The notes under the pieces are model-generated. The model did no database searches and was not told where the DNA came from. It saw only the letters and a program-made list of their open reading frames with translations. Position numbers and translations under genes: made by a program. A stretch of DNA of 52,278 nucleotides. Origin: Phycisphaerales bacterium. Lineage in GTDB: Bacteria > Planctomycetota > Phycisphaerae > SM23-33. Location: positions 1 through 52,278 of the forward strand of contig JABGPZ010000030.1 in NCBI GenBank assembly GCA_018644725.1, given 5' to 3'. Position 1 is the first letter of the stretch. Each line of letters begins with the position of its first letter. Of this stretch, positions 4,369 to 44,276 are shown in pieces.

Positions 4369-5328
4369 TTATCGATAGCTTTTGGGTGACTGGCCGATGA
4401 TTTTTTTGAACAGGCGAGAAAAATAATAAGGGTCGCCGAAGCCCAGTTTCTCGGCAATTTCGCACACCCGCATATCTGTGAGCTTCAGCAGTTGGCAGGC
4501 GCGTTGTATTTTCAGGCGGTTGAAATACTCTTTCGGAGAATATTGGTGCTGTCTTTTGAAGAGAACTCCATAGTGGTTGGTACTCATTCCGGCGAGTCGG
4601 GCAAGTTTTCGCAACGAGATTGTCTTATTCAGGTTATTGTGCATGAAATGGATTGTATTGTCGCACTGTTCTTCCGCTGTTCGACTTCGGTGCTCCTTTG
4701 TCCCCTGCCAAAGTTGCATTACACTCAACAAGGAACTCAAACCTCCTGATGCGGCAATGAGGTTAGGAATGGTGTGCACTTCAGACAGAAAACTGTAAAT
4801 CTGCTCGAAGGCAATGGTGGTTTCCTCCGGTTGATTCATATATAACAACGGAGAGGCCGGGGAAATCGAGAGTAGTTTGAGGTAGTCTGGAGCCTGCTGG
4901 CCTTTGAAGTGGATCCAGTAGTTCGCCCATGGGTTTTCGGGCATTGCCCCGTAGGCGTGCGGGACACCTGCGGGGACCAGAAAGCCCATATTTTTTTCGA
5001 TCACCCACTGGGACTCTCCGATTTCCAGCCAGCCAGTTCCCTCGGTGCAATAAATCATGATATGTTCCGAGCTTCCGCGAGGCCGGGGGATATAGTGTGC
5101 GGCGGCTGGGCCTTGATAGCCAATTCGTGTGCAGAGCAGATCACGCGTGATCGGTTGTTGCAGGGATTGATCCACCAATTGCTCGGGCATGAAAACCAGC
5201 CGCATATCGGGAAATGCACCACGCTGGACATGGCGGATCACTTCAGGAGAGATCGTGGAAAAGTCCCGGCAATCCACTCCGGCATGGTTGAGTAATTCCT
5301 TTAATGCATGCATTGATTTTGGCTTCAT
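4369..5328 (-). CDS. AraC-family transcriptional regulator with cupin sensor domain
   Basis: A 319-residue regulator. Residues about 55-170 form the AraC-type cupin sensor, with HYIPRPRGSSEHIMIYCTEG, WVIEKNMGFLVPAGVPHAYG and NYWIHFKG strands. Residues about 220-319 hold the two helix-turn-helix motifs, the first in ISLRKLARLAGMSTNHYGVL and the second in MRVCEIAEKLGFGDPYYFSR, ending in IGQSPKSYR. Such proteins usually bind a sugar or related effector and activate a neighbouring operon. It is divergent from the SSS transporter and GRE operon, which it most likely controls. AGAGGAG lies seven bases before the ATG. Confidence 0.9.
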   Translation of the reverse strand: MKPKSMHALKELLNHAGVDCRDFSTISPEVIRHVQRGAFPDMRLVFMPEQLVDQSLQQPITRDLLCTRIGYQGPAAAHYIPRPRGSSEHIMIYCTEGTGWLEIGESQWVIEKNMGFLVPAGVPHAYGAMPENPWANYWIHFKGQQAPDYLKLLSISPASPLLYMNQPEETTIAFEQIYSFLSEVHTIPNLIAASGGLSSLLSVMQLWQGTKEHRSRTAEEQCDNTIHFMHNNLNKTISLRKLARLAGMSTNHYGVLFKRQHQYSPKEYFNRLKIQRACQLLKLTDMRVCEIAEKLGFGDPYYFSRLFKKIIGQSPKSYR

Positions 5329-5528: not shown

Positions 5529-7229
5529 ATGCTTATTGCTGAAACGGCATTGAAGGGCCTTACGGGCTGGGATTTGAGTGTTGTTGTGGTCTACATGATC
5601 GCGATTGTTGGCATTGGCTGTGGCGCGACGTGGTGGCACAAACGCAAGGCCCATCTGCACACCCTCGGGGAAGAGCAAGGCGGCTACTTCCTCGCAGGCG
5701 GCACGCTGACATGGCCACTGATCGGCCTGGCGTTGTTCTCGACGAACATCTCCACCGTTCACCTCGTCAGCCTTGCCGAAAAAGGCTACACCTCGGGCTT
5801 GGTTGTCGGCAATACCGAATGGATGGCCGGGCTGTGCCTGATGATTTTGGCCGTCTTCTTCGCGCCGTTTTTCCTCAAGGCCAAGGTAGCAACCTTGCCG
5901 GACTTCCTCGAAAAACGCTACAGTCGCGCGAGTCGAAACTGGTTGGCGGGGGTTTCGATTTTTTCGGCCGTCTTTATTCATATTGGCTTTACGCTCTACG
6001 CGGCGGCGATTGTGCTCCATGGCCTCTTCGGGCTGGACATCAACACCTGCATCGTGGCCGTTGCGATTGCGACGGGTCTCTATACCATCATCGGTGGCCT
6101 CCTCGCCGTGGTGCTCACCGAGACCATTCAGACGGTGGTCCTTCTGGTGGGTGCGACTTGCCTGACGATTTTTGCCTATGACAAAGTCGGCGGCTGGGAG
6201 GGAATCACACAAAACGTGGACTCCACCCAATTGAGCATGTTGCGCGAAACCGGGCCGGGAGATGGCGGCATGCCTTGGTATGCGGCGCTGCTGGGATATC
6301 CCGTGATCGGGATTTGGTACTGGTGTACCGATCAGACGATTGTTCAGCGTGTCCTTGGTGCGAAAAGCGAAAATCATGGCCGCGTCGGACCGCTCTTTGC
6401 GGGGTTCATCAAAATCTTGCCCGTCTTTATCTTCATCCTTCCGGGCGTGATGTGCATGGCAATGGTCAAGCAAGGCGTACTCCCGGAACTGGATGATCCG
6501 AAAAACACCTACGCATTCATGATCGAGCATCTCCTGCCTGTCGGCATGCGCGGGTTGATGGCGGCAGCCTTGTTGGCGGCAGCGATGAGCACCGTTTCGG
6601 GTGCGCTGAACTCCATCGCCACGCTCTTTACCTACGACTTGTACAAACAATTCAAGCCGAACGCCCCAGAGAAAACACTCGTCCGAGTCGGGCGCATCAC
6701 GACGGCGGTCGCGATGGCATTGGCGATTGTCTGGTCCATCTTCGGCATCGGCGGAGGCCAGGCCCTCTTCGACCAGTTCGCAACGATCATCTGCCTCATT
6801 GCACCGCCGATCACCGTCACCTTCCTGCTGGGGGTCTTCTGGAAACGGGCCTCCAGCCGCGGGTCAATCATCACCATGCTGGTGGGAACGGCCATGGGCG
6901 CGGTGATGTTCGGGATTTACAAAGTGCACTGGGCTGCCCAAGCGGCTGCCGACGGAAAAGAATACTGGTCGTTCTGTAAGGATTGCCTCCCGCCGCTGTT
7001 GCAAAACTTCTGGATGGCGAGCTTCTATCTGGCGATTCTATGCGCGATCATCCATATGGTCACCTCCGTGATTTGGCCGGATGAACCGAGCGAGCTGAAA
7101 ATGTCCCTCGTGTGGGATCATCCCCTCGACGCCCTCAGGGGAGATGCCTGGCGCGGAATCGGGAACTACAAGTTCCTCTCAATCGCGTTGCTATTGACAA
7201 TCATCGGATTCTACATCGCCTTTGCCTAA
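5529..7229 (+). CDS. Sodium:solute symporter (SSS family, SglT-like)
   Basis: A 566-residue polytopic inner-membrane protein with about 13-14 hydrophobic segments. It has SSS-family features: YFLAGGTLTWPLIGLALFST near the N-terminus, AGVSIFSAVF and GLYTIIGGLLAVVLTETIQ in the middle, and AALLAAAMSTVSGALNSIAT with a Ser/Thr-rich sodium-site helix. The family imports sugars, vitamins, amino acids or organic acids with sodium. As first gene of the operon with a mutarotase and a cupin isomerase-like protein, it probably brings in a sugar or sugar derivative. The ATG at 5529 after GAGGG is preferred to an upstream TTG at 5514. Confidence 0.85.
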   Translation: MLIAETALKGLTGWDLSVVVVYMIAIVGIGCGATWWHKRKAHLHTLGEEQGGYFLAGGTLTWPLIGLALFSTNISTVHLVSLAEKGYTSGLVVGNTEWMAGLCLMILAVFFAPFFLKAKVATLPDFLEKRYSRASRNWLAGVSIFSAVFIHIGFTLYAAAIVLHGLFGLDINTCIVAVAIATGLYTIIGGLLAVVLTETIQTVVLLVGATCLTIFAYDKVGGWEGITQNVDSTQLSMLRETGPGDGGMPWYAALLGYPVIGIWYWCTDQTIVQRVLGAKSENHGRVGPLFAGFIKILPVFIFILPGVMCMAMVKQGVLPELDDPKNTYAFMIEHLLPVGMRGLMAAALLAAAMSTVSGALNSIATLFTYDLYKQFKPNAPEKTLVRVGRITTAVAMALAIVWSIFGIGGGQALFDQFATIICLIAPPITVTFLLGVFWKRASSRGSIITMLVGTAMGAVMFGIYKVHWAAQAAADGKEYWSFCKDCLPPLLQNFWMASFYLAILCAIIHMVTSVIWPDEPSELKMSLVWDHPLDALRGDAWRGIGNYKFLSIALLLTIIGFYIAFA

Positions 7230-7245
7230 CCGAAAGGACCGCACA

Positions 7246-7656
7246 ATGAAACACACACTTTGGGCCCTGATTCTAACAGCAGTGATTGCCATGAGCACCA
7301 CCGGATGCACCCAAGACCCCCCGGCCGTGAGACGATTTGGCTCGGTCATCGGCGTGAAAGACGACAAGCTCGCCTACTACAAAGAACTCCACGCCAAGCC
7401 CTGGCCTGCCGTTTTGAAGAATATCACCAAATGCAATATTCGGAACTACGTTATCTATCTCCGGAAGATGAACGATGGCAAGCACTACCTCTTCAGCCAT
7501 TTCGAGTACGTCGGCGATGACTTCGAAGCCGACATGAAACTCCTCGGCGAAGACAAAGAGACGCAGCGCTGGTGGAAAGAAACCGACCCGTGCCAATTCC
7601 CGCTGAATGGAGAAAAATCGTGGGCACCCATGGAAGAAGTCTTCTACCTGAAATAG
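7246..7656 (+). CDS. L-rhamnose mutarotase-like lipoprotein
   Basis: A 136-residue protein whose fold and motifs match the RhaM/DUF718 mutarotase family: GSVIGVKDDKLAYYKELHAK with the conserved Tyr and His49, NIRNYVIYLRK, HYLFSHFEYVGDDFEADM and a late WWKETDPCQ. The family interconverts alpha and beta anomers of L-rhamnose and related sugars. Unlike the cytosolic enzyme it begins with a signal peptide and lipobox STTGC (Cys21), so it probably acts outside the inner membrane, preparing the anomer for uptake. AAGGA lies before the ATG; the start at 7222 overlapping the transporter is less likely because it would bury the signal peptide. Confidence 0.85.
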   Translation: MKHTLWALILTAVIAMSTTGCTQDPPAVRRFGSVIGVKDDKLAYYKELHAKPWPAVLKNITKCNIRNYVIYLRKMNDGKHYLFSHFEYVGDDFEADMKLLGEDKETQRWWKETDPCQFPLNGEKSWAPMEEVFYLK

Positions 7657-7685: not shown

Positions 7686-9995
7686 ATGACTCAGGCAACC
7701 GACGAAAAAGGGTACGCCGCCGATATGCACCACAGCCAATTCAAGCCGAATGACCGGCTGAAACAGCTGATTGGACGTCGCGACTGGCTGACCCAGAACC
7801 ACAAAAAAGATCTCTACTGCGACAACGCCGAGTTCCTGATCTATCATTGGTCGGGCAAGAGCGAAACCTTTGCCGCCGCAACAGGCGACAACGCGGCCTC
7901 GGAAGAAGAGCGGATCAACATCGGCGACCACACCTGCCGCGTCGATGTCGGCGGGCCGTTCCCCTATCTCGACGAAATGCCCTCGAAGGTTCACGGGAAC
8001 GAACCGACGGTGACCAGCTGGGCGGCGGACTATGCTTTTTTCCTTCGCCACAGCGATGCGGAGGTGTATCCTCATGAACAAATTGTTGGCGAATTTCACT
8101 GGCAATTGGATGAGGCGCGGTCCTACAAATATCCTGGCAGTCATGCGGAATTGGGCCACAAAGCGCGTGAGTTGGGCGCAGGCGGATTCAGCCTCGCACA
8201 CACTTGCCCAGACCTTGCGATTGGTCTGAAGCTTGGCTGGGGCGGGTTGCTGGACAAAGTGCGCGCCTCGCGTGGCAAACACGCCGCTTACGGGAACGCA
8301 AAATCCGTGGAATACCTCGACGCCAGTGAGCAGGTTGTGTTGTCGGTGATCGATTATGTCCAGCGTCACGCGACCCAAGCCTCTATGCTGGCCACCCAAA
8401 CAGACGACGCCAATCTTAAAGCCAACTACGAACTGGTCGCGGCCAATTGTGCCAATATTGCCCAAAAACCGCCTTCGACCTATCACGAAGCATTGCAGTG
8501 GATTATGCTCTACATGATCGTCGAGCGCATTAACGGCCACGGGAATGGCTATGGCCGATTTGATCAACTCCTGAACCCGTTTTATCAGGCCGACAAGGCG
8601 GCAGGTCGCATCGATCGCGAGCGCGCTCGGGAACTGCTGGCGGAGTGGTATCTCAAGTATGGCCCGCACTTGTCCTATGGGGGGCGACGGGAAGATGGCT
8701 CGGACGCAACGAACGAGATGAGCTGGATTGGTCTCGAAGCCTACGATATGGTCGGTGGCTACAACCAGTTCGGCGTACAGTGGCATAGCGACATGGACCC
8801 GGAATTTTGGGCCTACTGCAATGACGTTGTCGCGCGTCACGGTTGTGGCGTACCCGCGTTGTTGAACAACGATGTTATGGTCGGGAGCCAGCTCCGAACG
8901 GGGTTCCCCGAAGCCCATGCTCGAAACACGTCCTACAGCGGGTGTCAGTGGTATTGCATCCCCGGCCGGGAGTATCAGGACCAGGATGTCAATTGCATCG
9001 TTCTGATTGCGCCAATGCAACGGGCGATGAATCTTGCCATTGAGCAAAACGTTGAGACATGGGACGAATTTTGGGCGATCTATTGCCACGAAGTCGACCG
9101 TACGAGCGATGCCTTTGTGGATTTCAAAAACGAGGCCTACAAGTATCATGCCCAACTCTGGCCGGAAATGATCACCTCGCTTTGCTCCCACGGTCCGATC
9201 GAAAAGGGCCGCGATCTCACGGACTTCGATTCCGTTGACTACAACTACCCCTCCGTGAATGTCTTGGGCGTGCCGAATGTGGCCGACTCAATGTATGCGA
9301 TCAAACGCGGGTGCTTTGACGAGAAAAAATACACCCTTCAGCAACTCCACGATGCTTGCACGAGCGACTGGACGGGTGAAGGGGAAGAGGTCATGCGCCA
9401 GTATTTCCTCAATCTACCCAAGTTTGGCAACGATGAAGATTCTGTCGATGCCATGGCTGTAGAGATTTCTGAACAGGTGCGTGAAACGACGGAAGCCAAA
9501 CATTGCATCAAGGGCGGGCACTTTCGCCCGTCACTCTTCCAGTTCCAAGGCCACACCGTTGCGGGCCCCTATCTCGGCGCAACCCCCGATGGGCGCAAAC
9601 GTGCGGAACCGTTGGCACATGGAATGAACCCCATGCATGGCCGAAACACTGAAGGGCTTCTGGCGACGGCGAACTCCTTCACCAAACTGGACTTCAATAA
9701 ATACCAAGGTGGCTCGCTCCAGATCGAACTTCACCCGAGCGCCTTTGGGGGATACGACAGCCGCGGGGACATGATGCAGCAATTCTCCGATGTCTTTTTT
9801 GCTCAGGGGGGAGTGCAGATCAACCTCAACGTCTTCGACTTGGATGAGCTTCGCGATGCCTATGAGAATCCGGAAAAGACGGAATACGATCACATCGTTG
9901 TCAAGGTCACGGGCTACTCCGCCCACTTTACCAAAATGGATCGCCAGTTCCAGAAGGAATTTTTGGAACGCGTCAACTACACCAAACTGAACTGA
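7686..9995 (+). CDS. Glycyl radical enzyme 1, pyruvate formate-lyase family, atypical active site
   Basis: A 769-residue glycyl radical enzyme. The C-terminal radical loop is VTGYSAHF with Gly743, and the thiyl-radical loop is SGCQWYCIPGREY with Cys420 as the expected catalytic Cys and Cys424 four residues later. In GRE dehydratases and C-N or C-S lyases of the GCVE type a Glu stands two residues after the Cys; here it is Trp422. It also lacks the adjacent Cys-Cys of pyruvate formate-lyase. The reaction is therefore open; a sugar or sugar acid substrate is suggested by the symporter, mutarotase and cupin in the same operon. The enzyme needs an oxygen-free cytoplasm and activation by a radical-SAM activase, most likely the next gene. 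The start at 7686 is chosen over upstream codons that would overlap the mutarotase. Confidence 0.85.
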   Translation: MTQATDEKGYAADMHHSQFKPNDRLKQLIGRRDWLTQNHKKDLYCDNAEFLIYHWSGKSETFAAATGDNAASEEERINIGDHTCRVDVGGPFPYLDEMPSKVHGNEPTVTSWAADYAFFLRHSDAEVYPHEQIVGEFHWQLDEARSYKYPGSHAELGHKARELGAGGFSLAHTCPDLAIGLKLGWGGLLDKVRASRGKHAAYGNAKSVEYLDASEQVVLSVIDYVQRHATQASMLATQTDDANLKANYELVAANCANIAQKPPSTYHEALQWIMLYMIVERINGHGNGYGRFDQLLNPFYQADKAAGRIDRERARELLAEWYLKYGPHLSYGGRREDGSDATNEMSWIGLEAYDMVGGYNQFGVQWHSDMDPEFWAYCNDVVARHGCGVPALLNNDVMVGSQLRTGFPEAHARNTSYSGCQWYCIPGREYQDQDVNCIVLIAPMQRAMNLAIEQNVETWDEFWAIYCHEVDRTSDAFVDFKNEAYKYHAQLWPEMITSLCSHGPIEKGRDLTDFDSVDYNYPSVNVLGVPNVADSMYAIKRGCFDEKKYTLQQLHDACTSDWTGEGEEVMRQYFLNLPKFGNDEDSVDAMAVEISEQVRETTEAKHCIKGGHFRPSLFQFQGHTVAGPYLGATPDGRKRAEPLAHGMNPMHGRNTEGLLATANSFTKLDFNKYQGGSLQIELHPSAFGGYDSRGDMMQQFSDVFFAQGGVQINLNVFDLDELRDAYENPEKTEYDHIVVKVTGYSAHFTKMDRQFQKEFLERVNYTKLN

Positions 9996-10007: not shown

Positions 10008-10988
10008 ATGAGCAAGCAACGCACAGCGGGTGTCTTTGATACCCACCGAATGGCCACGGATGACGGACCGGGCATGCGTACGACCCTGTTCTTCCAGGGC
10101 TGTCCGATGCGCTGTCGTTGGTGCCATAACCCCGAGAGCATTTCCATGGCCTCGAAGGTCTGGAGCGTCAACACCAAGGCGTGCATTGACTGTGGTGAGT
10201 GTGCCCGAGTTTGCCCACGGAAGGCGATGGTGTCCACCGGGGACGGGAGGACGATTGACCGTCAATCCTGTGATAATTGCGGAGAGTGTGCCGAGGTGTG
10301 CCCGACGCATCACCTCCAGAGTGTCGCTGAGAACTGGACCGTGGACCAGGCCGCCAAGTTTGTTCTGAAAGACAAGCCCTTCTATGATCGGAGTGGTGGC
10401 GGAGTGACTGCCTCCGGCGGCGAACCGCTCAGTCATGCGGAATTCGTTGCAGAGTTGTTTCGCAAACTTCAGGCTCAAGGGGTACACACGGCTCTGGATA
10501 CCTGCGGCCTTTGTTCTGCGGAGCAAATTCAATCCATCCTGCCCCACACAGACTTGATCCTGTGGGACATCAAAACGATGAACCCCGAAGAGCACGCCGC
10601 GTTCACGGGTGTCTCCAATGAACGTATTCTCGAAAACCTTCTTCTCGTGGCCGAGTGGGTTCGAAATCATTCCGAAACTGATCTTTGGATTCGCACGCCG
10701 TTGGCCCCGGGCATGACCGCGACATCCGACACCCTCCGTCAAATCGGTACGTTCCTGCAAGACCATCTCGCGGGCACGGTGTCCCGATGGGACTTGTGCG
10801 CATTCAACCCGATGGCCCGCGACAAATACAAACGCCTGGGCCTCACTTGGGAATTGGCCGAGACTCCTTTGCTTACCAAAGACCAAGCCGCGGAACTCCT
10901 CCGTGTTGCCCAGCAACACGCCCCGGCCGCAACGGACGTCTCGCTGGGAGGACCGACCCAGGCCACACCCCTTACCAATAAAGCATGA
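10008..10988 (+). CDS. Glycyl radical enzyme activase 1 (radical SAM)
   Basis: A 326-residue activating enzyme. The radical-SAM cluster motif CPMRCRWC gives Cys32, Cys36 and Cys39, followed by the NPES segment. Two ferredoxin-like 4Fe-4S motifs follow, CIDCGECARVCP (59-69) and CDNCGECAEVCP (88-98), as in activases of the glycerol dehydratase and arylacetate decarboxylase type. SGGEP at about 136-140 is the SAM-binding GGE motif. It abstracts hydrogen from the radical Gly of its partner. It starts 13 bases after GRE1, so GRE1 is the likely partner. Its end overlaps activase 2 by ATGA. Confidence 0.93.
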   Translation: MSKQRTAGVFDTHRMATDDGPGMRTTLFFQGCPMRCRWCHNPESISMASKVWSVNTKACIDCGECARVCPRKAMVSTGDGRTIDRQSCDNCGECAEVCPTHHLQSVAENWTVDQAAKFVLKDKPFYDRSGGGVTASGGEPLSHAEFVAELFRKLQAQGVHTALDTCGLCSAEQIQSILPHTDLILWDIKTMNPEEHAAFTGVSNERILENLLLVAEWVRNHSETDLWIRTPLAPGMTATSDTLRQIGTFLQDHLAGTVSRWDLCAFNPMARDKYKRLGLTWELAETPLLTKDQAAELLRVAQQHAPAATDVSLGGPTQATPLTNKA

Positions 10989-11887
10989 CTGAAACACTGA
11001 CACACATTCGACTGTTTGACATCCAACGCTACAGCGTACATGATGGCGATGGGATACGAACCAACGTATTCCTCAAGGGCTGTCCGCTGGCGTGCAAGTG
11101 GTGTTCTAATCCCGAGTCGCAGAGTTTCGCCTTCGAGAAGACCTACAATGCCTCGACGTGTATGGGCTGTCAGCGGTGCGTTGAGGTCTGCCCGACCGGG
11201 GCCATGACATTGGAAGGCCCGCAACCCAAGGGAACGTGCACCCTGTGTTTCCGGTGTGAAGCGGCCTGTCCCACGGCCTCGATTCGCCGAATCGGCCAGG
11301 ATTGGTCCATCGACGCGGTGTTGGAAGAAGTTCTCAAGGACAGCGCGTTCTACACTGTTTCTGGTGGAGGGGTGACCCTCTCCGGCGGCGAACCTCTCGC
11401 CCAGCCAGAGGCCTGCGGGGAGCTGGCGAAAGCGATCAAGCAACTCGGACTGCACCTGGCGATTGAAACCTGCGGGTATGCACCGTGGGCCAAGGCAGAG
11501 CCTGTATATCGCCTTTGCGATCAGATTCTGTATGACATCAAGGAAATCGATCCGGAACGCCACAAACGGTTTACCGGTGTGGACAATGCGTTGATCTTGG
11601 ACAACGCCCGCAAGGCCGCTGCGCTGGAGAGCGAATTCATTGTGCGTGTTCCGGTAATTGGTGACTATAATGACAGTCAGGACACCATCCAGGACATCGC
11701 CGAATTTGCGGCGGAGATCGGGGCGGAGGCAATCCACCTCCTGCCTTTCCACCAGCTCGGTGAAAATAAATACCATCGGGCAGGACTACAATATACATGC
11801 AACGCCTACACGCCCGATGACGAAATGATGCGGGAACTGGCCGATGTGGCCAGCTCGTGTGGCATCCCCGTGCAAATCGGCGGCTGA
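10985..11887 (+). CDS. Glycyl radical enzyme activase 2 (radical SAM)
   Basis: A 300-residue paralogue of the preceding gene. Radical-SAM cysteines are Cys33, Cys37 and Cys40 in CPLACKWC; the two accessory clusters are CMGCQRCVEVCP (59-69) and CTLCFRCEAACP (85-95); SGGEP lies near 128-132. It is translationally coupled to activase 1 by ATGA at 10985-10988 and ends 32 bases before GRE2, which it probably activates. Two separate activases suggest the two GREs are not interchangeable for activation, but cross-activation cannot be excluded from sequence. Confidence 0.93.
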   Translation: MTETLTHIRLFDIQRYSVHDGDGIRTNVFLKGCPLACKWCSNPESQSFAFEKTYNASTCMGCQRCVEVCPTGAMTLEGPQPKGTCTLCFRCEAACPTASIRRIGQDWSIDAVLEEVLKDSAFYTVSGGGVTLSGGEPLAQPEACGELAKAIKQLGLHLAIETCGYAPWAKAEPVYRLCDQILYDIKEIDPERHKRFTGVDNALILDNARKAAALESEFIVRVPVIGDYNDSQDTIQDIAEFAAEIGAEAIHLLPFHQLGENKYHRAGLQYTCNAYTPDDEMMRELADVASSCGIPVQIGG

Positions 11888-11919
11888 GACCGACAACCAA
11901 CCCCATTGAGGTGAATCGA

Positions 11920-14340
11920 ATGCAAACTACACCATTCCAGCCTATCATAAAAGAAGTCCTCCCCGAAGGCTCCGCCGGATCGCAACGCATCCAGCGCATG
12001 CGCCAGCGCGTGGTCAACGTTCAGCCAGAAGTGTGTCTGGAACGCGCCCGGATCGCAACACGCGTCTACAAGGCCAACGAGCACCTGAGTCCCTTGCCAT
12101 TGCGAACGAAAACCTTCGACGCGGTTCTTCGGGAGATGAGCCTTCTGATTCTCGACGACGAGTTGATCGTCGGCCACCAATCCTCCAAGCACCGCAGTGC
12201 GCCGCTGTTCCCGGAATTTGCCGTGGAGTGGATCAACGACGAAATTGAGACCTTCTACACGCGCGCGCAGGATAAATTCTACATCAGTGATGAAGACATT
12301 CAAACGTTCCGCGAAGAGATCTATCCGTACTGGACCGGCAAGACCTTCAAAGACAAGATGATGACCTACATGTCCGAGGAGGTTCGCAAACTCCGCTTCG
12401 ACGCGGGGCTTATCAGCGTTGGTGTGCATGAAGAGAGCGCCATTGGTCATGTGTTGCTCGACTATCAAAAGATTCTCACCCATGGGTTCAGCGGGGTCAA
12501 GGCGACGATTCAAGAGAAGATCGATGCGCTGACATCGTGGAAGGCGGAAGACCTTCGCGCAAAGCAGTTCTACGATGCGTGCCTGTCCGTGTGCGATTCG
12601 GTGATCGCCTTCGCGCGGCGCTATTCGGAACTGGCGACGCAGCTGGCCGAGGCCGAGGCGGATCCCAAACGCAAAGCCGAGCTACTTGAGATTGCCAAGG
12701 TCTGCGCGCGCGTTCCCGAATTCCCGGCCGAAACCTTCCACGAAGCGCTGCAAAGTTTCTGGTTCATCCAGATCGTCACGCAAATCTACGACAACGGCGT
12801 GTCCATCTCGCCGGGGCGCTTTGACCAATACATGCTCCCGTACTATACGCAGGATATTGAATCAGGCCTGCAAACCAAGGAGAGCGCCCAGGAGCTTCTT
12901 GAGGCCATGTGGGTCAAGTTCTGCGAGCCGATCAAGATTTATTGTGCCGAGGATGCAGCGTTCCACGCGGGCTATCCCATGGGGCAAAACCTCATCATTT
13001 CCGGCCTGCTTCCCGACGGGAATGACGGGACCAACGAACTGTCCTATCGCTGTCTCGAAGCCCATTCGCACCTCGTGCTCTCCCAGCCAAATTTCTCGGT
13101 GCGATTGCACTCAAAATCTCCCATCCAGTTCGTTCAGCATGTCTGCGAGGCCATCCGCAAAGGCAACGGCATGCCGCAGATCGTCAACGACGACATCTAT
13201 GTGCCGGCGATGATGAATCTGGGGGTTCCCCTCGCCGACGCGCGCGACTACACTCTCGTGGGATGCGTCGAGATTTCGCCTCGCCATACCTGGGGCCGAT
13301 GCAACGGCGGCTACCTGAACCTCAGCAAGGTTCTCGAATTGACCCTGTTCAACGGGCGTTGCGGGATTTCCGACAAGCAGGTCTCCATCGAAACCGGCGA
13401 CCCGACGAGCTTTGATACCTTTGAGAAATTCGTCGAGGCGTTCACCCGCCAGATGAATTACTGCATGGAAAAACTCGTCGAGTGGGACAACCTCATCGAC
13501 ATGGTCCACGCCGAGAACATGCCCATCCCGCTCCACTCGATTTTGGTGGACGATTGCATCGAAACCGGCACGGACGTCCTCAAAGGCGGCGCGCGCTACA
13601 ACTGGACCGGCCCGCTGGGCGTGGGGATCGCCAACGTTGGCGACTCGCTCTATACGCTCAAGAAGGCCATCTATCAAGACAAGACCTTCACCATGGAGCA
13701 GTTGGTTCGCGCTCTGGAAACCGACTTTGACGGCGAAGAGGTCATGCGCCAAACTCTGATCAATCGGGTTGATAAATATGGCAACGACCTCGACGGCCCG
13801 GACCAAATGGTCAAGCGGGCTACGGACATCTTCTTTGATTCCATGCTCGGCTACGAGACCTATCGCGGCGGACCGTTCACGGCGGCGTTGCTCCCCGTGG
13901 CGGCGTACGTTGCGTTCGGGCTGGCCACGGCGGCGTTGCCGGACGGCAAAAAGAAATACGCGCCTCTTGCCGACGGCATTTCGCCCACCTCCGGCGCAGA
14001 CATCAAGGGCCCGACGGCCGCGATGCGCTCGATCTGCGCGATCGATCATGTCCGCTGCGGCAACGGCGTAATCTTCAATCAGAAGATTTCCCCCACCGCC
14101 GTCTCGACGCCCGAAGGCATCGCCAAATGGGCCAACATGATCATGGGCTATATCGCCCTCGGCGGCGGCCACGTGCAGTTCAACATCGTCGATGCTGAAA
14201 CGCTACGCAGCGCCATGATTCATCCCGAAGAGCACAAGGGCCTGGTCGTCCGCGTCGCCGGGTACAGCGCATTTTTCAACGAGCTTGCACCGGAAATCCA
14301 GGAAAGCATCATCGCCCGAACCGAACACACCCTTGCATAA
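11920..14340 (+). CDS. Glycyl radical enzyme 2, GCVE-type (dehydratase/lyase class)
   Basis: An 806-residue glycyl radical enzyme with the canonical active site LVGCVEIS, Cys449 and Glu451, and the radical loop RVAGYSAFF with Gly781. GGARYNWTGPLGVGIANVGDSL-type segments and the PDGKKKYAPLADGISP region are those of the glycerol/propanediol dehydratase branch, which also holds choline, isethionate and hydroxyproline enzymes. The Cys-x-Glu pair fits water or group elimination from a 1,2-diol-like substrate, for example a deoxy-sugar-derived diol, but the substrate is not determined by what I can see. GAGGTG before the ATG at 11920 supports this start over the longer upstream frame. Confidence 0.9.
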   Translation: MQTTPFQPIIKEVLPEGSAGSQRIQRMRQRVVNVQPEVCLERARIATRVYKANEHLSPLPLRTKTFDAVLREMSLLILDDELIVGHQSSKHRSAPLFPEFAVEWINDEIETFYTRAQDKFYISDEDIQTFREEIYPYWTGKTFKDKMMTYMSEEVRKLRFDAGLISVGVHEESAIGHVLLDYQKILTHGFSGVKATIQEKIDALTSWKAEDLRAKQFYDACLSVCDSVIAFARRYSELATQLAEAEADPKRKAELLEIAKVCARVPEFPAETFHEALQSFWFIQIVTQIYDNGVSISPGRFDQYMLPYYTQDIESGLQTKESAQELLEAMWVKFCEPIKIYCAEDAAFHAGYPMGQNLIISGLLPDGNDGTNELSYRCLEAHSHLVLSQPNFSVRLHSKSPIQFVQHVCEAIRKGNGMPQIVNDDIYVPAMMNLGVPLADARDYTLVGCVEISPRHTWGRCNGGYLNLSKVLELTLFNGRCGISDKQVSIETGDPTSFDTFEKFVEAFTRQMNYCMEKLVEWDNLIDMVHAENMPIPLHSILVDDCIETGTDVLKGGARYNWTGPLGVGIANVGDSLYTLKKAIYQDKTFTMEQLVRALETDFDGEEVMRQTLINRVDKYGNDLDGPDQMVKRATDIFFDSMLGYETYRGGPFTAALLPVAAYVAFGLATAALPDGKKKYAPLADGISPTSGADIKGPTAAMRSICAIDHVRCGNGVIFNQKISPTAVSTPEGIAKWANMIMGYIALGGGHVQFNIVDAETLRSAMIHPEEHKGLVVRVAGYSAFFNELAPEIQESIIARTEHTLA

Positions 14341-14383
14341 CCAAACCCATTCACCGCGACGAAATAAGGAGAGGGATTTTACA

Positions 14384-14983
14384 ATGAAGCAATGGACCAA
14401 TGAGGATTTCTATGTTGATGGCAAGTTTGACGAAGCCAAGGCCAAACAGGCCTATTTCGAGCTGATGGAATATCACGGTTACCCAATTTTTGAAAGTTAT
14501 AAGGGCGAGCAAATGTGGTGCCCCGACTTTGACCTAGGCGACTTCGCCCATGTCGGCATGGCGGGTGTGTTCTGGATGAACCACAACCATGAGGGCGGGG
14601 GCTATCTCGGGCATGAAATCCTTCTTCTGCCTGGCCAGATGATCGTCGAGCACAGCCACGTCGCCGTCGAGGGTGTCTGCCCGGCCAAGCGAGAAGGCTG
14701 GCTGATCCGCCATGGCTCGGCCTATAATTTCTCGACCGAAGAAGAGCCGACGGGGTTCCTTGAAGGCGTGGAAATCCCCGAAAGCCAAAAACCTTACGTC
14801 ACCGTCAATTCCTGCACATTGCTCAACGCTGGCGACACCGACCAGTTGAACGTTCCCGAATCGAGCCACTTCCTCATGGGCGGGCCTGAAGGCGCGATCA
14901 TCACGGAATTCGCGACGTACCACACCAATGACGCGCTCCACTTCACCCACCCCACACTGGAGTTCGGCGTCAAAGAATCCTGA
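14384..14983 (+). CDS. Cupin protein resembling D-lyxose/sugar isomerases
   Basis: A 199-residue single-domain cupin. Motif 1 runs from LLPGQMIVEHSHVAVEG and has the metal-ligand pattern His90, His92 and Glu104, and a later His162 in SSHFLMGG fits motif 2. This arrangement with a long spacing before Glu and the phrase GWLIRHGSAYNF resembles cupin-type D-lyxose ketol-isomerases. As the last gene of the operon it may isomerise the imported sugar or an intermediate. It could also be a different metal-cupin lyase. GGAGAGG precedes the ATG; the longer frame from 14285 overlaps GRE2 and is not supported. Confidence 0.7.
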   Translation: MKQWTNEDFYVDGKFDEAKAKQAYFELMEYHGYPIFESYKGEQMWCPDFDLGDFAHVGMAGVFWMNHNHEGGGYLGHEILLLPGQMIVEHSHVAVEGVCPAKREGWLIRHGSAYNFSTEEEPTGFLEGVEIPESQKPYVTVNSCTLLNAGDTDQLNVPESSHFLMGGPEGAIITEFATYHTNDALHFTHPTLEFGVKES

Positions 14984-15168: not shown

Positions 15169-15240
15169 AGCGGGCGATGAGATTCGAACTCACGACATTC
15201 ACGTTGGCAACGTGACGCTCTACCACTGAGCTACGCCCGC
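15169..15240 (-). tRNA. tRNA-Gly (anticodon GCC), copy 1
   Basis: A 72-base cloverleaf read on the minus strand: acceptor GCGGGCG/CGCCCGC, D-stem GCTC/GAGC, anticodon stem TCACG/CGTGA with loop TTGCCAA, T-stem GTGAG/CTCAT with loop TTCGAAT, discriminator T. CCA is not encoded. It is identical to the copy at 32713-32784. It stands at the right border of the GRE block, next to a split copy of its own tail. Confidence 0.97.
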
Positions 15241-32712: not shown

Positions 32713-32784
32713 GCGGGCGTAGCTCAGTGGTAGAGCGTCACGTTGCCAACGTGAATGTCGTGAGTTCGAATCTCATCGCCCGCT
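32713..32784 (+). tRNA. tRNA-Gly (anticodon GCC), copy 2
   Basis: Identical in all 72 bases to the minus-strand gene at 15169-15240: loop TTGCCAA, T-loop TTCGAAT, discriminator T, no encoded CCA. It is followed by a hairpin terminator and then by remnants of its own tail sequence. Confidence 0.97.
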
Positions 32785-37730: not shown

Positions 37731-40700
37731 ATGAAATACGCTAAATGGATGCTACTTCTTGTGTTGGCAACGGTTATCTTTTCGAGCGACATGTTCGCCT
37801 CCAAGCCGCTTGCGCCGCAAAATCCCTACAAGGCTGCTCAGGCGGCCGAGAAAAAAGGGAACTACCGCGACGCCTACAACCTGTACCGCAAGGCACTCGA
37901 AACCAAAGGCGCGATTACGGCCCAGCAGGCCGAGGCGGCTCTGGGGAAGGGGGTTTACTGTCTCCAGCGTCTCAACCAGTACAACAAGATGGACGAGTTT
38001 GTCGAGGCGATGCTCAAGGTCGAGCACCAGAAGGACAACTACTACCTCGTCAACCGCGCCGCGCAATATTATCGCCAGGTACAGCACTACGGCTATATCG
38101 TCGCCGGCGAATATCATCGCGGCAGCCATCGCGGCGGCGGGCGCTGGGTCTATAGCACCGAGCGCGACAACATGCGCGCACTGCAACTGATGGAACGCGC
38201 GGAGAAACTGCTGGTCAAGTGCGACGTTCCGGTCGGCACTCAGGCGAATTTCTACCGCGTCTTCGCGGGCTATTTCCTCAAGCAACCCTGGCAGATGACC
38301 GCGCTGAGCGACACGTCGAAGCTGCCTGACTATGGCAATGGCTATCGTGGCGGCGGGCGGGGGTATCCCGTCAACGCTCAGGGCGAGCCGATCTACTTCT
38401 TCGTGCCCAAGAGCTACCAGGCCGCGAAAAATGACGGCGAACGCTGGCGCTGGCTGCTGAAAAAGTCGAGCGAACTCCGCAAGAACCCCAATCAGGAACT
38501 TTCGGCTGTCGCCAATTTTGCGCACGGCTATCTCGGTGTGCAAACGCTCCGGCAATATTCCAACTTCTTTGGCCGCAGCAACGAAGCCGACGAGAAGGCG
38601 AACCAAAAGGGCGTCTGGGCGATCCACACCCTCACCGACACCGAGACCATTGCCCGCACCGCTGGCGGGATTAAGCGTTTGACTCTGCCCAAAGAGTATC
38701 AGTTTGTGCGCTATTACCGCGAGACGAAAAACAAGTACACTCTTGCGGGTATTTTTGAAAACCGCCGTCAATACACCGAAGCGGCCATCCTCCGCGACCA
38801 GATCGTCAAAGAGCAAAATTATCCCGCGACGATCAAGAATCTTGAATCGCAACTCAAAGTGCTCGAAGCGCAGATCAAAAAGGGCGTCCCCGCCAAGCAG
38901 AAACGTAGCTACGACGACCGCCTTCGCAGTGTCAAGAAGCAGCTTGAAATGTATCGCCGCGTGGTGAAAAAGGATGATGCGAAGCTCTATGTCCCGATGA
39001 GGGATGAACATGGCTGCTGGCAGCAGCTGTGTCAGCTTCGCGGGAACATGGGCCAGTTCGAGTCCGTAATGACCCAGCCCTCGGGCAAGGGCGCGACGCT
39101 GCAATATCGCTTCCGCAACGCGACCAAGGCGACTTTCACTGCCGAGGAAATCGACATTGAAAAACTCCTCACCGACTGCAAGAACTACATCAAGTCCAAG
39201 CCCGCCAAGTACAACTGGCAGGATTGGCGCAACAACACCGAGGTCACCAACATTGGCCAGCGTCTGATTAGTGGATTCAAGACGGTTCCGAATATGGCAC
39301 CGAATCAGATGAGACTGAATCCGTCGGCCAATGACGCCAAACTCCAGATTGGCCAGATCGGGTATCAGCTCGTCAAGAATGACAAAGTTAAGTACATCAC
39401 CAAGAAGACGGCCGAGTGGTCGATGGATCTCAAGCCCCGCACGAATCACTGGGACAAGCGCATCACCGTCACCACTCCGCTGCAGAAGGCTGGCGCGTAT
39501 CTCGTGACGGCCAAGCTCGCCAACGGCAACATCTCCAAGATCATCGTATGGGTGGCTGACACCGTCCTCGTCGAGAAGAACATCGAGAAGGGCAAGAAGC
39601 TGTACTACGTCGCCGACGCGATTACCGGCAAGCCGATTGAAAAGGCCAATATTGAGTTCTTTGCCTATCGCCGCCATTACACAGGAAACAGTACCTACCG
39701 TTGGGACATCAAGAATTTCAGCGAGCACACCGACGTCGATGGCATGGCGTATCTCGACAATAGCAAAATCCCCGGCAACCACAGTTGGACCGTGCTGGCG
39801 ATGGCGCGCACCAAGGCTGGCCGCCTGGCATATACCGGCTTCCGTAACGTGTGGTACAATTCCTCGTCGGCCTCTCAGCCGTCCGTCACGCGATTGTTCT
39901 ATCTCACCGACCGCCCGGCCTATCGGCCGAAGCAAACCGTGAAATGGAAATTCTGGTACAACAGCGCCAACTACGGCAAGAAAAATTACGACAGCCCCTA
40001 CGCAAAGCGCAAGGCCTATGTCCGCATCGACACCCCACGCGGCGAAAAAGCGTGGGACGGTTATGTGACCCTCGACAAATTTGGCGGCGCGAATGGCGAA
40101 TTGGCCCTCAAGGCCGGTTGCCAACTTGGCACGTATCGTTGGCATGCCCGGTGGGCCCCGAACAGTGGCCATCTCGGTGGCGGCAGTTTCCGCGTCGAGG
40201 AATACAAAAAGCCCGAATACGAAGTCACCGTCGAAGCGCCGAAAGATCCCGTCGCGCTCGGCGAAACCATCAAGGCCAAGGTGATCGCGAAATACTATTT
40301 CGGCGGCGCCGTGACCGACGCGAAGGTCAAGTACAAGGTCCTCCGCAAGGAGCACAGCGCGAACTGGTATCCGGCCGACCATTGGGACTGGCTCTACGGC
40401 AGCGGCTACTGGTGGTTTGGATATGATTACACATGGTATCCGGGCTGGCGCAGCTGGGGCTGCAAGCGGCCGTACCATCCGTGGTGGGGCTGGCGACCGA
40501 CGCCACAGCCCGAACTCGTCGCCGAGGGCGAAGCGAAAATCGGCAAAGACGGCACGTTCGAAATCCCGATTGACACCTCCCTCGCCAAGGCGATGCACCC
40601 CGACCGCGATCACAAATATGAAATCACCGCCGAGGTCCGCGACGCGTCGCGCCGCACCATCGTCGGCACGGGCCAGGTCCTCGTCAGCCGCAAACCGTTC

Positions 40701-43700
40701 AAGGTCCACACTTGGGTTGACCGCGGATTCTATCGCGTCGGCGACAAAATCGAAGTGAACTACTTCGCCCGCCGTCTCGACGGCAAGGCCGTTTCCGGCA
40801 AGGGCAGCCTCAAGCTCTACAAGATCGGCTACACCACCGGCAAACATGGCGAACCCGTCCCCGTCGAAACCCTCGAAGGAACGTGGAACAACGACGTCGA
40901 CGACTCCGGCAAGATGTGCCAGCCGCTCGACGCGACCCTCCCCGGGCAGTACCGCGTGAGCTGCTCGGTCACCGACAACCAAGGCCACACCATCGAAGGT
41001 GCGCAAGTCTTCACGGTCTGGGGCAAGGGCGATACGGGCAAAGACTATCGCTACAACGGCCTGGAATTGTTGCCGGATCGCAAGAACTATAAATCCGGCG
41101 ACACGGTGAGCCTGCGCGTGAACACCGCCAAGCGCGACTCGACGGTGCTGCTGTTCACCCGCTGCGCCAATGGCCTGTGTCCCACCCCCAAGGTCCTCCG
41201 GCTCAACGGCCGTTCGGTGGCCGAGGCGATCAAACTGACTGACGTGGATATGCCGAACATCTTCATCGAGGCCGTCACGATTGCCGACGGCAAGGTGCAC
41301 AATGAAATCCGTCAAATCGCCGTGCCGCCCAAAAAGCGCATCGCGAAGATCAAGATCGAGACCGACAAGACCGAATATCTCCCCGGCAAGAAAGCCAAGG
41401 TCAAGCTGCTCGTCACCGATCACACCGGCGAGCCGTTCAGCGGGCAAGTCGCGCTGACGATGTATGACAAGTCGGTGGAATACATTTCCGGCGGCAGCAA
41501 CATCGGCGACATTCGCAAAGTGTTCTGGGGCTGGAAACGTAACCACAGCCGTCAGTTGGCCCACTCGCTGCAAAAGGGCTGCTCCAATCTCGTCCTGCCG
41601 GGCCACGGCCCGATGCGGTTTGTGGGGTGCTTCGGCCATAGTGTCGCCGACACGCCTAGTAAAAGGCGCGAGGCAGGATTTGCCGTGGGCGCTGAGGTCA
41701 TGGCGATGGATTGTATCGCAAAGGAGTCAGCTGAAGACGGCCGGTTCCGCGCCCAGTCCAGGATGATCGCTGCGCCCAAGCCTTCGGCTGCGCCGATGAC
41801 GAAATCGCGGGCGAAGAAGGACGTGGGCTATTTCGCGAATGGCAAGGGAGAAAAGGCCGCTGAAGGCAATGCCGCTGGCGGGAATCAACCCGCTGTGGCG
41901 GTTCGCAGCAAGTTCGCGGACACGGCCAAGTGGATCGCTGCGCTGGCGACTGCGAAAAATGGCGTGGCCGAAATTGAAATCGAAATGCCCGAGAACCTCA
42001 CGACGTGGAAAACGCGGACGTGGGTGATGGGCAAAGGATGCGAAGTGGGGGCGGCCGATGTGGAAGTCCTCACCACCAAGCCCGTGATCTGCCGGCTGCA
42101 AGCGCCGCGCTTCTTCGTCCAGAAGGACGAGTGCGTGCTGTCGGCGGTCGTGATGAACCGCGCGAAGAAAGAACTCACAATCAAGGTTGTCCTCGGCCTG
42201 GGCAACAGCCCGATGGAACTCATCGCGGGCAATGCGACCCAAAGCGTCACCATTCCGGCCGGCGGGTCCAAGCGCGTCGATTGGCGCGTGAAGGTCACGG
42301 ACGAAGGCACCGCGAAAATTACCATGACCGCGACTGGCCCGACGAAGGACCTCTCCGACGCGATGGTCAAGAGCTTCCCGTGCAAGGTCCACGGCATGTT
42401 GAAAACCGAGAGCTATTCCGGCGTGATCCGCGCCGATGGCAAGAGCGGCACGATTCAGATTCGCGTGCCCAAGGAACGCCGTCCCGCCCAGAGCCGTCTG
42501 GAAGTTCGCTACAGCCCGACGCTGGCGGGGGCGATGCTCGACGCGCTGCCGTACCTGATCGAATATCCCTACGGCTGCACCGAGCAGACGTTGAACCGCT
42601 TCCTGCCTGCAGTGATTACCCGCAAGACGTTGCAGAATCTCAACATCGATCTCGCGGAAATCGAGAAGCATCGCACGAACCTCAACGCGCAGGAAATCGG
42701 CGACGACAAGGCCCGCATCGCGGCCGACTGGAAACGCACCACGGAAACATGGCGGACCCGTCACGGTCACCTCAACAGCCCTGTCTTCAACAAGGCTGTG
42801 CTCGACGACGTGGTCAAACAGGGCGTCAACCGCCTGATCTCGCAGCAATGCTCCGACGGCGGGTGGGGCTGGTTCAAGGGCGACCACAGCTATGCCCACA
42901 CCACGGCCGTCGTGGTTCACGGGCTGATCATCGCCAAGCAGTGTGACGTGGCGATTGTGCCCGGGACGATTGAACGCGGGCTGAAGTGGCTCAAACGTCA
43001 TCAGGATGGCGAAGTGCGCAAGCTGCAAAACGGGACGAAAACCATCGCCGGTGGCACGCACCCCCGGCCTTGGAAAACCCGGGCGTCGAACCTCGACGCG
43101 CTCGTGGCGAAGGTGCTGCTCGAAGGCGGCGCGAAGTATGACTGCAAGGAAATGCGCGACTTCCTCTATCGCGACCGGCTGAAGCTGAGCGTGTACGGCC
43201 AGTGCCTTGTCGGGACCGTTCTCGACATGGCCAAGGACACCCGCGTCGCGATGGTCGTCAAGAACATCGACCAGTTCCTCAAGGTCGATGACGAGAACCA
43301 GTCGGCCTATCTGGAACTGCCGCAGGGTTGCTACTGGTGGTACTGGTACGGCAGCGAGATCGAAGCCAACGCGGCCTACCTCAAGCTGCTCGCCAAGTAT
43401 GACCCCAAGGGCAAAAAAGCGTCTGGGCTGGTGAAGTATCTGCTGAACAACCGCCGCCACGCGACGTACTGGAACTCGACGCGCGACACGGCCTACTGCG
43501 TCGAAGCGTTCGCCGATTACATCAAGGCCTCCGGCGAGGCCAAGCCCGACATGGAAGTCGAAGTCCTCATCGATGGCAAGGTCCACAAGACGGTGAAAAT
43601 CAACGCGAAGAATCTCTTCACCTATGACAACAAGCTGGTCCTCACCGGCGACGCCGTCACCGACGGCAAGCACACCGTCACGCTGCGGCGCAAAGGCAAA

Positions 43701-44276
43701 GGCCCGCTGTACTACAACGCGTACCTCACGAACTTCACGCTCGAAGACCCGATCGAAAAGGCCGGGCTGGAAGTGAAGGTCACACGCAAATACTTCAAGC
43801 TCGAGCGCGATAAAAAAGCGACGCAGCTGGTGGAAACCGCCACGGGTGTGGCGACGGCGCAAAAGGTCGAGAAGTACATCCGCGTGGAAATTCCCGATCC
43901 GTTCGTCACCGGCAAGGCCACCCCGGGCATCGAGTCCGGCGACCTGATCGAAGTCGAGCTGACCATAGAATCGAAGAATGATTACGAATACATTCTGATT
44001 CGCGACTACAAGCCCGCCGGCTGCGAGACCGTCGGCCTGCGGAGCGGCTATTCGAGCAACAACGGCATGTGGGCTTATCGCGAATTCCGCGACGATCACG
44101 TCTGCTGGTTCGTCCGGGCTCTCGCGCGCGGGAAACACTCGATGAGTTATCGCGTCCGGGCAGAAATTCCGGGCATCTTCAGCGCACTGCCAGCGAAGAT
44201 CGAAGCGATGTACGCACCGGAACTCGTGGGCAATTCCAACGAACAAAAGGTCACGATCACCGACGAAGTCGAATAG
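37731..44276 (+). CDS. Alpha-2-macroglobulin family protein with thioester motif
   Basis: A 2181-residue exported protein, longer than E. coli YfhM (about 1650). After the signal peptide the first 250 residues look like TPR helices (YKAAQAAEKKGNYRDAYNLY). A set of macroglobulin beta-domains follows, including LFYLTDRPAYRPKQTVKWK near 720. The bait and conserved centre are VRSKFADTAKWIAAL and PENLTTWKTRTW around 1390-1430. The thioester is PYGCTEQTLNRF with Cys1616 and Gln1619, followed by the (alpha/alpha) thioester domain (SDGGWGWFKGD). Such proteins trap proteases in the periplasm. The usual partner PbpC is not adjacent; a serine protease gene is, on the other strand. A Trp/Tyr-rich stretch lies at about 878-924. 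Confidence 0.95.
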   Translation: MKYAKWMLLLVLATVIFSSDMFASKPLAPQNPYKAAQAAEKKGNYRDAYNLYRKALETKGAITAQQAEAALGKGVYCLQRLNQYNKMDEFVEAMLKVEHQKDNYYLVNRAAQYYRQVQHYGYIVAGEYHRGSHRGGGRWVYSTERDNMRALQLMERAEKLLVKCDVPVGTQANFYRVFAGYFLKQPWQMTALSDTSKLPDYGNGYRGGGRGYPVNAQGEPIYFFVPKSYQAAKNDGERWRWLLKKSSELRKNPNQELSAVANFAHGYLGVQTLRQYSNFFGRSNEADEKANQKGVWAIHTLTDTETIARTAGGIKRLTLPKEYQFVRYYRETKNKYTLAGIFENRRQYTEAAILRDQIVKEQNYPATIKNLESQLKVLEAQIKKGVPAKQKRSYDDRLRSVKKQLEMYRRVVKKDDAKLYVPMRDEHGCWQQLCQLRGNMGQFESVMTQPSGKGATLQYRFRNATKATFTAEEIDIEKLLTDCKNYIKSKPAKYNWQDWRNNTEVTNIGQRLISGFKTVPNMAPNQMRLNPSANDAKLQIGQIGYQLVKNDKVKYITKKTAEWSMDLKPRTNHWDKRITVTTPLQKAGAYLVTAKLANGNISKIIVWVADTVLVEKNIEKGKKLYYVADAITGKPIEKANIEFFAYRRHYTGNSTYRWDIKNFSEHTDVDGMAYLDNSKIPGNHSWTVLAMARTKAGRLAYTGFRNVWYNSSSASQPSVTRLFYLTDRPAYRPKQTVKWKFWYNSANYGKKNYDSPYAKRKAYVRIDTPRGEKAWDGYVTLDKFGGANGELALKAGCQLGTYRWHARWAPNSGHLGGGSFRVEEYKKPEYEVTVEAPKDPVALGETIKAKVIAKYYFGGAVTDAKVKYKVLRKEHSANWYPADHWDWLYGSGYWWFGYDYTWYPGWRSWGCKRPYHPWWGWRPTPQPELVAEGEAKIGKDGTFEIPIDTSLAKAMHPDRDHKYEITAEVRDASRRTIVGTGQVLVSRKPFKVHTWVDRGFYRVGDKIEVNYFARRLDGKAVSGKGSLKLYKIGYTTGKHGEPVPVETLEGTWNNDVDDSGKMCQPLDATLPGQYRVSCSVTDNQGHTIEGAQVFTVWGKGDTGKDYRYNGLELLPDRKNYKSGDTVSLRVNTAKRDSTVLLFTRCANGLCPTPKVLRLNGRSVAEAIKLTDVDMPNIFIEAVTIADGKVHNEIRQIAVPPKKRIAKIKIETDKTEYLPGKKAKVKLLVTDHTGEPFSGQVALTMYDKSVEYISGGSNIGDIRKVFWGWKRNHSRQLAHSLQKGCSNLVLPGHGPMRFVGCFGHSVADTPSKRREAGFAVGAEVMAMDCIAKESAEDGRFRAQSRMIAAPKPSAAPMTKSRAKKDVGYFANGKGEKAAEGNAAGGNQPAVAVRSKFADTAKWIAALATAKNGVAEIEIEMPENLTTWKTRTWVMGKGCEVGAADVEVLTTKPVICRLQAPRFFVQKDECVLSAVVMNRAKKELTIKVVLGLGNSPMELIAGNATQSVTIPAGGSKRVDWRVKVTDEGTAKITMTATGPTKDLSDAMVKSFPCKVHGMLKTESYSGVIRADGKSGTIQIRVPKERRPAQSRLEVRYSPTLAGAMLDALPYLIEYPYGCTEQTLNRFLPAVITRKTLQNLNIDLAEIEKHRTNLNAQEIGDDKARIAADWKRTTETWRTRHGHLNSPVFNKAVLDDVVKQGVNRLISQQCSDGGWGWFKGDHSYAHTTAVVVHGLIIAKQCDVAIVPGTIERGLKWLKRHQDGEVRKLQNGTKTIAGGTHPRPWKTRASNLDALVAKVLLEGGAKYDCKEMRDFLYRDRLKLSVYGQCLVGTVLDMAKDTRVAMVVKNIDQFLKVDDENQSAYLELPQGCYWWYWYGSEIEANAAYLKLLAKYDPKGKKASGLVKYLLNNRRHATYWNSTRDTAYCVEAFADYIKASGEAKPDMEVEVLIDGKVHKTVKINAKNLFTYDNKLVLTGDAVTDGKHTVTLRRKGKGPLYYNAYLTNFTLEDPIEKAGLEVKVTRKYFKLERDKKATQLVETATGVATAQKVEKYIRVEIPDPFVTGKATPGIESGDLIEVELTIESKNDYEYILIRDYKPAGCETVGLRSGYSSNNGMWAYREFRDDHVCWFVRALARGKHSMSYRVRAEIPGIFSALPAKIEAMYAPELVGNSNEQKVTITDEVE

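Follow-up and report, generated by a model that had tools for sequence, protein, structure and literature searches.

A clade of glycyl radical enzymes with an invariant SGCQWYC active-site loop and a link to sugar utilisation

The gene GRE1, found in a 52,278-nucleotide stretch of DNA from a Phycisphaerales bacterium (here referred to as the window), encodes a glycyl radical enzyme (GRE) whose subfamily forms a single clade with an invariant active-site loop, SGCQWYC, in which a tryptophan stands two residues (+2) after the catalytic cysteine. The anomaly holds up, is conserved and defines a lineage, and the class, a variant of the known GRE superfamily, is uncharacterised in everything that was searched. 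With a probability of about one half, GRE1 is an active GRE of anaerobic sugar-utilisation loci whose substrate is a free monosaccharide, L-fucose or a closely related 6-deoxyhexose being the likeliest, with Trp422 serving as a platform and Glu429 as a displaced acid/base. GREs of this type lack the usual eliminase glutamate, and their chemistry would show how necessary that residue is. The SGCQWYC branch is linked to the liberation of fucose from glycans, among them algal fucoidan, which is a slowly degraded carbon store, and its function is directly testable because Pontiella sulfatireligans is in culture and grows anaerobically on L-fucose and fucoidan.

GRE1 occupies positions 7,686 to 9,995 of the forward strand, where an intact frame encodes 769 amino acids followed by a stop codon. 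The translation contains TSYSGCQWYCIPGREYQD, with the active-site loop running from Ser418 to Cys424 (8,937 to 8,957) and comprising Cys420, Trp422 at +2 and Cys424 at +4. Glu429 (+9; 8,970 to 8,972) is invariant in every aligned Trp-type GRE, and the radical glycine, Gly743 (9,912 to 9,914), is located in the VTGYS motif of an intact loop, KVTGYSAHF. An earlier, sequence-only reading had described Cys420 followed by Gln-Trp-Tyr-Cys, a Trp replacing the Glu at +2, the lack of the adjacent cysteine pair of pyruvate formate-lyase (PFL) and an undamaged Gly743 loop, all of which are borne out by the translation (the sequence being GCQWYC). Pfam matches to the PFL-like (PF02901, 313 bits) and Gly_radical (PF01228, 67 bits) domains are far above cut-off, and the AlphaFold model (69 sequences) has a pLDDT of 90.6 and a pTM of 0.93. 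The PFL-like domain, the catalytic cysteine, the C-terminal glycine loop and the fold make GRE1 a member of the glycyl radical enzymes, and a dedicated radical SAM activase is encoded at 10,008 to 10,988. The PFL-like match begins at residue 171; residues 1 to 167 fall outside it, and a sequence search of the PDB with them returned nothing meaningful. The first 165 or so residues (window positions 7,686 to 8,186) nevertheless form a strongly conserved block (DNAEFLIYHWSG...ATG, GDH--RVD) that has no Pfam or PDB match. The host genome (2.5 Mb, 95% complete) has two PFL-like genes, both within the window.

Relatives were sought in 84,980 species genomes, and the best 80 hits consist of 12 close orthologues (L033 to L044), 56 to 78% identical to GRE1, and 68 others that make up a second, larger clade, all with the loop GC[H/N/Q]W (the GCxW clade); the next relatives after the orthologues are at most 33% identical. 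A set of 295 genomes of one order yielded two further SGCQWYC proteins, and the motif is thus identical in 15 of 15 proteins (GRE1 and 14 others at 56 to 78% identity) from several phyla. The hosts include Pontiella sulfatireligans (78%), Carboxylicivirga, Sunxiuqinia and other Bacteroidota, along with metagenome-assembled genomes (MAGs) of Chlorobiota, Spirochaetales, Chloroflexi and Desulfobulbaceae. No further SGCQWYC gene was present in 392 sampled genomes of the phylum, 38 of the order and 298 of the class. The gene is thus scattered in its distribution and was probably transferred between lineages; a plasmid search gave no match. When the motif columns are left out of the tree, the SGCQWYC proteins still form one fully supported clade. 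Between GRE1 of the window and that of Pontiella dN is 0.16 with dS saturated, and GRE1 is under purifying selection; since the motif is also identical in the orthologues, it is not a product of chance, sequencing error or decay. The earlier suggestion of a distinct GRE subclass therefore stands, given the supported branch, the drop in identity from 56% to 33% and a position outside every characterised family searched; in the libraries covered, GRE1 was not placed inside any characterised cluster sharing its motif. No work on the class turned up in a literature search on GREs in connection with fucose, fucoidan, fucosidase or planctomycetes, most subscription journals lying outside its scope.

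Within the window GRE1 is part of an operon-like series of genes. A divergent AraC-family regulator (4,369 to 5,328, reverse strand; identified by Pfam), 53% identical to one adjoining the Pontiella GRE1, is followed on the forward strand by a sodium:solute symporter (SSS; 5,529 to 7,229; PF00474 and TIGR00813 over cut-off), a RhaM-family mutarotase (7,246 to 7,656; PF05336 at 83 bits, TIGR02625 below cut-off) with a lipoprotein-like signal read by eye, and GRE1 itself. Next come two activases, both over cut-off for TIGR02494. Activase 1 (10,008 to 10,988), with CPMRCRWC and two CxxCxxCxxxC motifs, is of the type found after GRE1 in most of the orthologous loci, where it is the best match, and activase 2 (10,985 to 11,887) presumably serves GRE2, judging from gene order. 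GRE2 (11,917 to 14,340; TIGR01774 over cut-off) has the conventional GCVE loop and is closest to diol dehydratase; the series ends with a D-lyxose-isomerase-like cupin (14,381 to 14,983; phmmer 1e-10 to 2y0o and 2e-10 to 7nzo). GRE2 does not travel with GRE1, the other GREs scored in host genomes being HypD, PFL or other types. Neither a fucosidase nor a fucose permease occurs in the window locus, and L-fucose isomerase (FucI) is absent from the window genome. Elsewhere in the window, a pair of tRNA-Gly(gcc) genes of equal score lies on opposite strands, one just after the GRE operon (15,169 to 15,240, reverse) and one at 32,713 to 32,784 (forward).

The neighbourhoods of the orthologues point towards fucose. 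An activase lies directly 3′ of GRE1 in 12 of 15 loci (split frame in L037; unrecognised in L033, absent from L121 and a contig end in L042), and an AraC-type regulator is usually found upstream. Among the 15 loci, fucose-permease-like MFS transporters and GH29 fucosidases each occur in eight, TIM-barrel isomerase-like proteins in four, PhyH-type oxygenases and RhaM-like mutarotases in three each, and GH95-type proteins in two. The expectation that the gene would travel with a mutarotase and a symporter holds in part: the mutarotase recurs, but the SSS symporter adjoins GRE1 in the window only, the fucose-permease-like protein being the more usual transporter (8/15 loci versus 1/71 in the GCxW clade). 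At least one of GH29, GH95 or fucose permease is encoded in 11 of 15 SGCQWYC loci versus 3 of 71 GCxW loci (P = 2e-8). Host genomes are rich in fucosidases (75 matches in Pontiella), and for this reason the counts were scaled by the fucosidase density of each genome; GH29 fucosidases then occur in 8 of 12 loci where 0.81 would be expected (P = 4e-8), the Bacteroidota loci among them being related and not independent. Control GRE loci in such genomes have a fucosidase in two of eight cases. One locus, L043, consists of GRE1, an activase and a fucose permease (FucP) above its curated cut-off and nothing else. The link to sugar is thus strong for the SGCQWYC subfamily and presumably extends to GRE1 of the window. 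The nearest orthologue belongs to an organism that grows on L-fucose and fucoidan, and in which its describers found no fuculokinase (PMC7356697). A role for GRE1 as a plain replacement of L-fucose isomerase is ruled out, as FucI and GRE1 occur together in 10 of 12 genomes; FucI is present in most hosts and fuculokinase (FucK) above cut-off in five, which means that GRE1 does not just fill a gap in fucose breakdown.

For GRE1 we infer a substrate, residue roles and a type of reaction as follows. The activase would form the radical on Gly743, from which it would be transferred to Cys420, and the resulting thiyl radical would abstract a hydrogen atom from one of the sugar's carbons. Since +2 has no glutamate, we propose that the pyranose stacks on Trp422 as a platform, and that Glu429, together with Asp434 and His172, may take over acid/base duty and the binding of hydroxyls. 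A radical elimination would be the likely result, either dehydration or opening of a ring C-O bond, by analogy with PflD and YbiW acting on anhydrohexitol phosphates. Those two enzymes (8yjo, 8id0, 8id7) share with GRE1 the GRE fold (TM 0.80 to 8yjo) and the pattern IPGR-Y---D after the catalytic cysteine, and their substrate is a sugar ring, as proposed here for GRE1. They differ in having Glu at +2 and Thr at +9 (8id0 loop), in being about 23% identical to GRE1, and in using phosphorylated anhydrohexitols. A precedent for GREs acting on sugar rings exists in that PflD and YbiW open the rings of 1,5-anhydromannitol-6-phosphate and 1,5-anhydroglucitol-6-phosphate (PMC12441222).

It is possible, though distinctly less probable, that GRE1 acts on some other sugar or sugar acid released along with fucose (for example L-galactose, L-rhamnose, a methylated fucose or fuconate), so that the association with fucose reflects shared glycans. 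The window locus, which combines a RhaM-type mutarotase and a lyxose-isomerase-like protein with the lack of a fucosidase, is in keeping with this, as is the FucI already present in host genomes, and the substrate in the window may indeed be another sugar such as a different 6-deoxy sugar. In three loci GRE1 has a PhyH-type oxygenase next to it, conceivably an aerobic counterpart, which could be read in the same direction. However, L043 pairs GRE1 and its activase with a fucose permease and no other gene, and fucosidases are the commonest hydrolases in SGCQWYC loci, both of which favour L-fucose. The three PhyH-family dioxygenases, which are oxygen-dependent, are encoded directly 3′ of the oxygen-sensitive GRE1-activase pair in Bacteroidota (L036:13245-14225, L040:13209-14231 and L041:4142-5125) and may carry out the aerobic counterpart of the GRE1 step.

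Comparison with enzymes of solved structure bears on whether GRE1 is instead a diverged diol dehydratase that tolerates Trp at +2, its substrate being 1,2-propanediol or a comparable small diol formed downstream as fucose or rhamnose is degraded; we regard this as unlikely. Glycerol dehydratase is the best solved match in both sequence and fold (1r8w, TM 0.83), ahead of PflD (8yjo, 0.80), propanediol dehydratases and 8id0, a PflD structure containing 1,5-anhydromannitol-6-phosphate. In the alignment GCQWYCIPGREYQDQD of GRE1 pairs with GCVEPQKPGKTEGWHD of glycerol dehydratase, GCQW standing opposite GCVE, so that Trp422 occupies the position of the catalytic glutamate, Glu435 at +2. His172 and Asp434 of GRE1 pair with the substrate-binding residues His164 and Asp447. 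The B12-independent glycerol and 1,2-propanediol dehydratases (1r8w, 5i2a) thus share these residues with GRE1 yet differ in Glu435 versus Trp422, are 23% identical to it and cannot be aligned by sequence with its residues 1 to 167. GRE eliminases with a GCxE loop (GDH, CutC, HypD, IslA, PflD) carry Glu at +2, and the characterised ones rely on it; all 15 SGCQWYC proteins have Trp there. Pontiella does ferment fucose to 1,2-propanediol (PMC7356697), but GRE2 of the window is far closer to a diol dehydratase (652 bits to the Roseburia enzyme 5i2a, versus about 200 for GRE1), and no microcompartment or aldehyde-dehydrogenase genes were recognised in the neighbour lists, which were read without model searches. 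All NCBIfam GRE equivalogs and TIGR01774 score GRE1 under cut-off, the best being TIGR01774 (302 versus 678), with HypD at 229 versus 1100 and CutC at 187 versus 1050. Identity as a PFL is likewise rejected (124 bits versus a cut-off of 994); PFL has the superfamily and the glycine loop in common with GRE1, while the adjacent cysteine pair of PFL is missing from GRE1. No close relative of either Trp-type clade was found among solved GREs.

The GCxW clade (L002 to L004, L012 and L045 to L112), of which we know no characterised member, resembles GRE1 in having Trp at +2, Glu at +9, Tyr or Phe at +10 and Asp at +14, and in its sugar-linked neighbours. It differs in being at most 33% identical, in usually having His or Asn at +1, and in a variable +4. 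Among 108 aligned GREs, Glu +9, Tyr/Phe +10 and Asp +14 accompany Trp at +2 in 83 of 83 proteins, GRE1 included, whereas among the 25 that carry an acidic residue (Glu or Asp) at +2, just 3 have Glu at +9. GCxW proteins were already part of the alignment from which the scan patterns were built, so that their proportion of the hits is skewed, although the motif itself was not in the patterns. The SGCQWYC, GCxW and GCxE sets each fall on one side of a branch (SH-aLRT 98 to 100, loop columns left out), giving a three-way split in which the first two may be sisters, a join that is insecure because long branches meet there. Neighbours of GCxW genes include Gfo/Idh/MocA-type oxidoreductases (19/71 loci), phosphomannose-isomerase-like proteins (7/71) and AGE-like epimerases (3/71); fucosidases typify the SGCQWYC loci instead. 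Tentatively, and at well under even odds, the two Trp-type clades could constitute a large division of GREs whose radical reactions act on sugars without a phosphate group or on cyclic polyols, the acid/base having shifted from +2 to +9, and the SGCQWYC clade would give anaerobes a radical route into L-fucose that is absent from known pathways. GCxW GREs (L045 to L112, L029 to L032) are spread over many bacterial phyla and are also present in MAGs of Bathyarchaeota.

The second cysteine pointed out in the sequence-only reading is present in GRE1 and fixed within the SGCQWYC clade, but in the GCxW clade at large the residue at +4 varies between Ala, Ser and Cys, which rules out Cys424 as a hallmark of the wider Trp-type class. 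A PFL-like or other thiyl chemistry with Cys424 as second catalytic cysteine would account for its invariance in the SGCQWYC clade; it is nonetheless improbable, since most members of the wider clade carry Ala or Ser there, the adjacent pair is missing and the PFL score is low. The different chemistry proposed in that reading is plausible and is something we still infer, as the loss of Glu is real yet the extra cysteine is not general to Trp-type enzymes. That GRE1 is catalytically dead, with a structural or regulatory role, might be argued from the lost eliminase residue and the unmatched residues 1 to 167, but is very improbable in view of the cysteine and glycine loop retained in all intact orthologues, the selection on the gene and its multi-phylum spread with an adjoining activase. 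Other planctomycetal GREs (L028, L007, L025, L027, L016, L019 and L022) have unusual loops of their own (ACQD, TCVE, GCHE and GCNE), and the window also holds, at 37,731 to 44,276, an open frame of 2,181 amino acids with a signal-like start.
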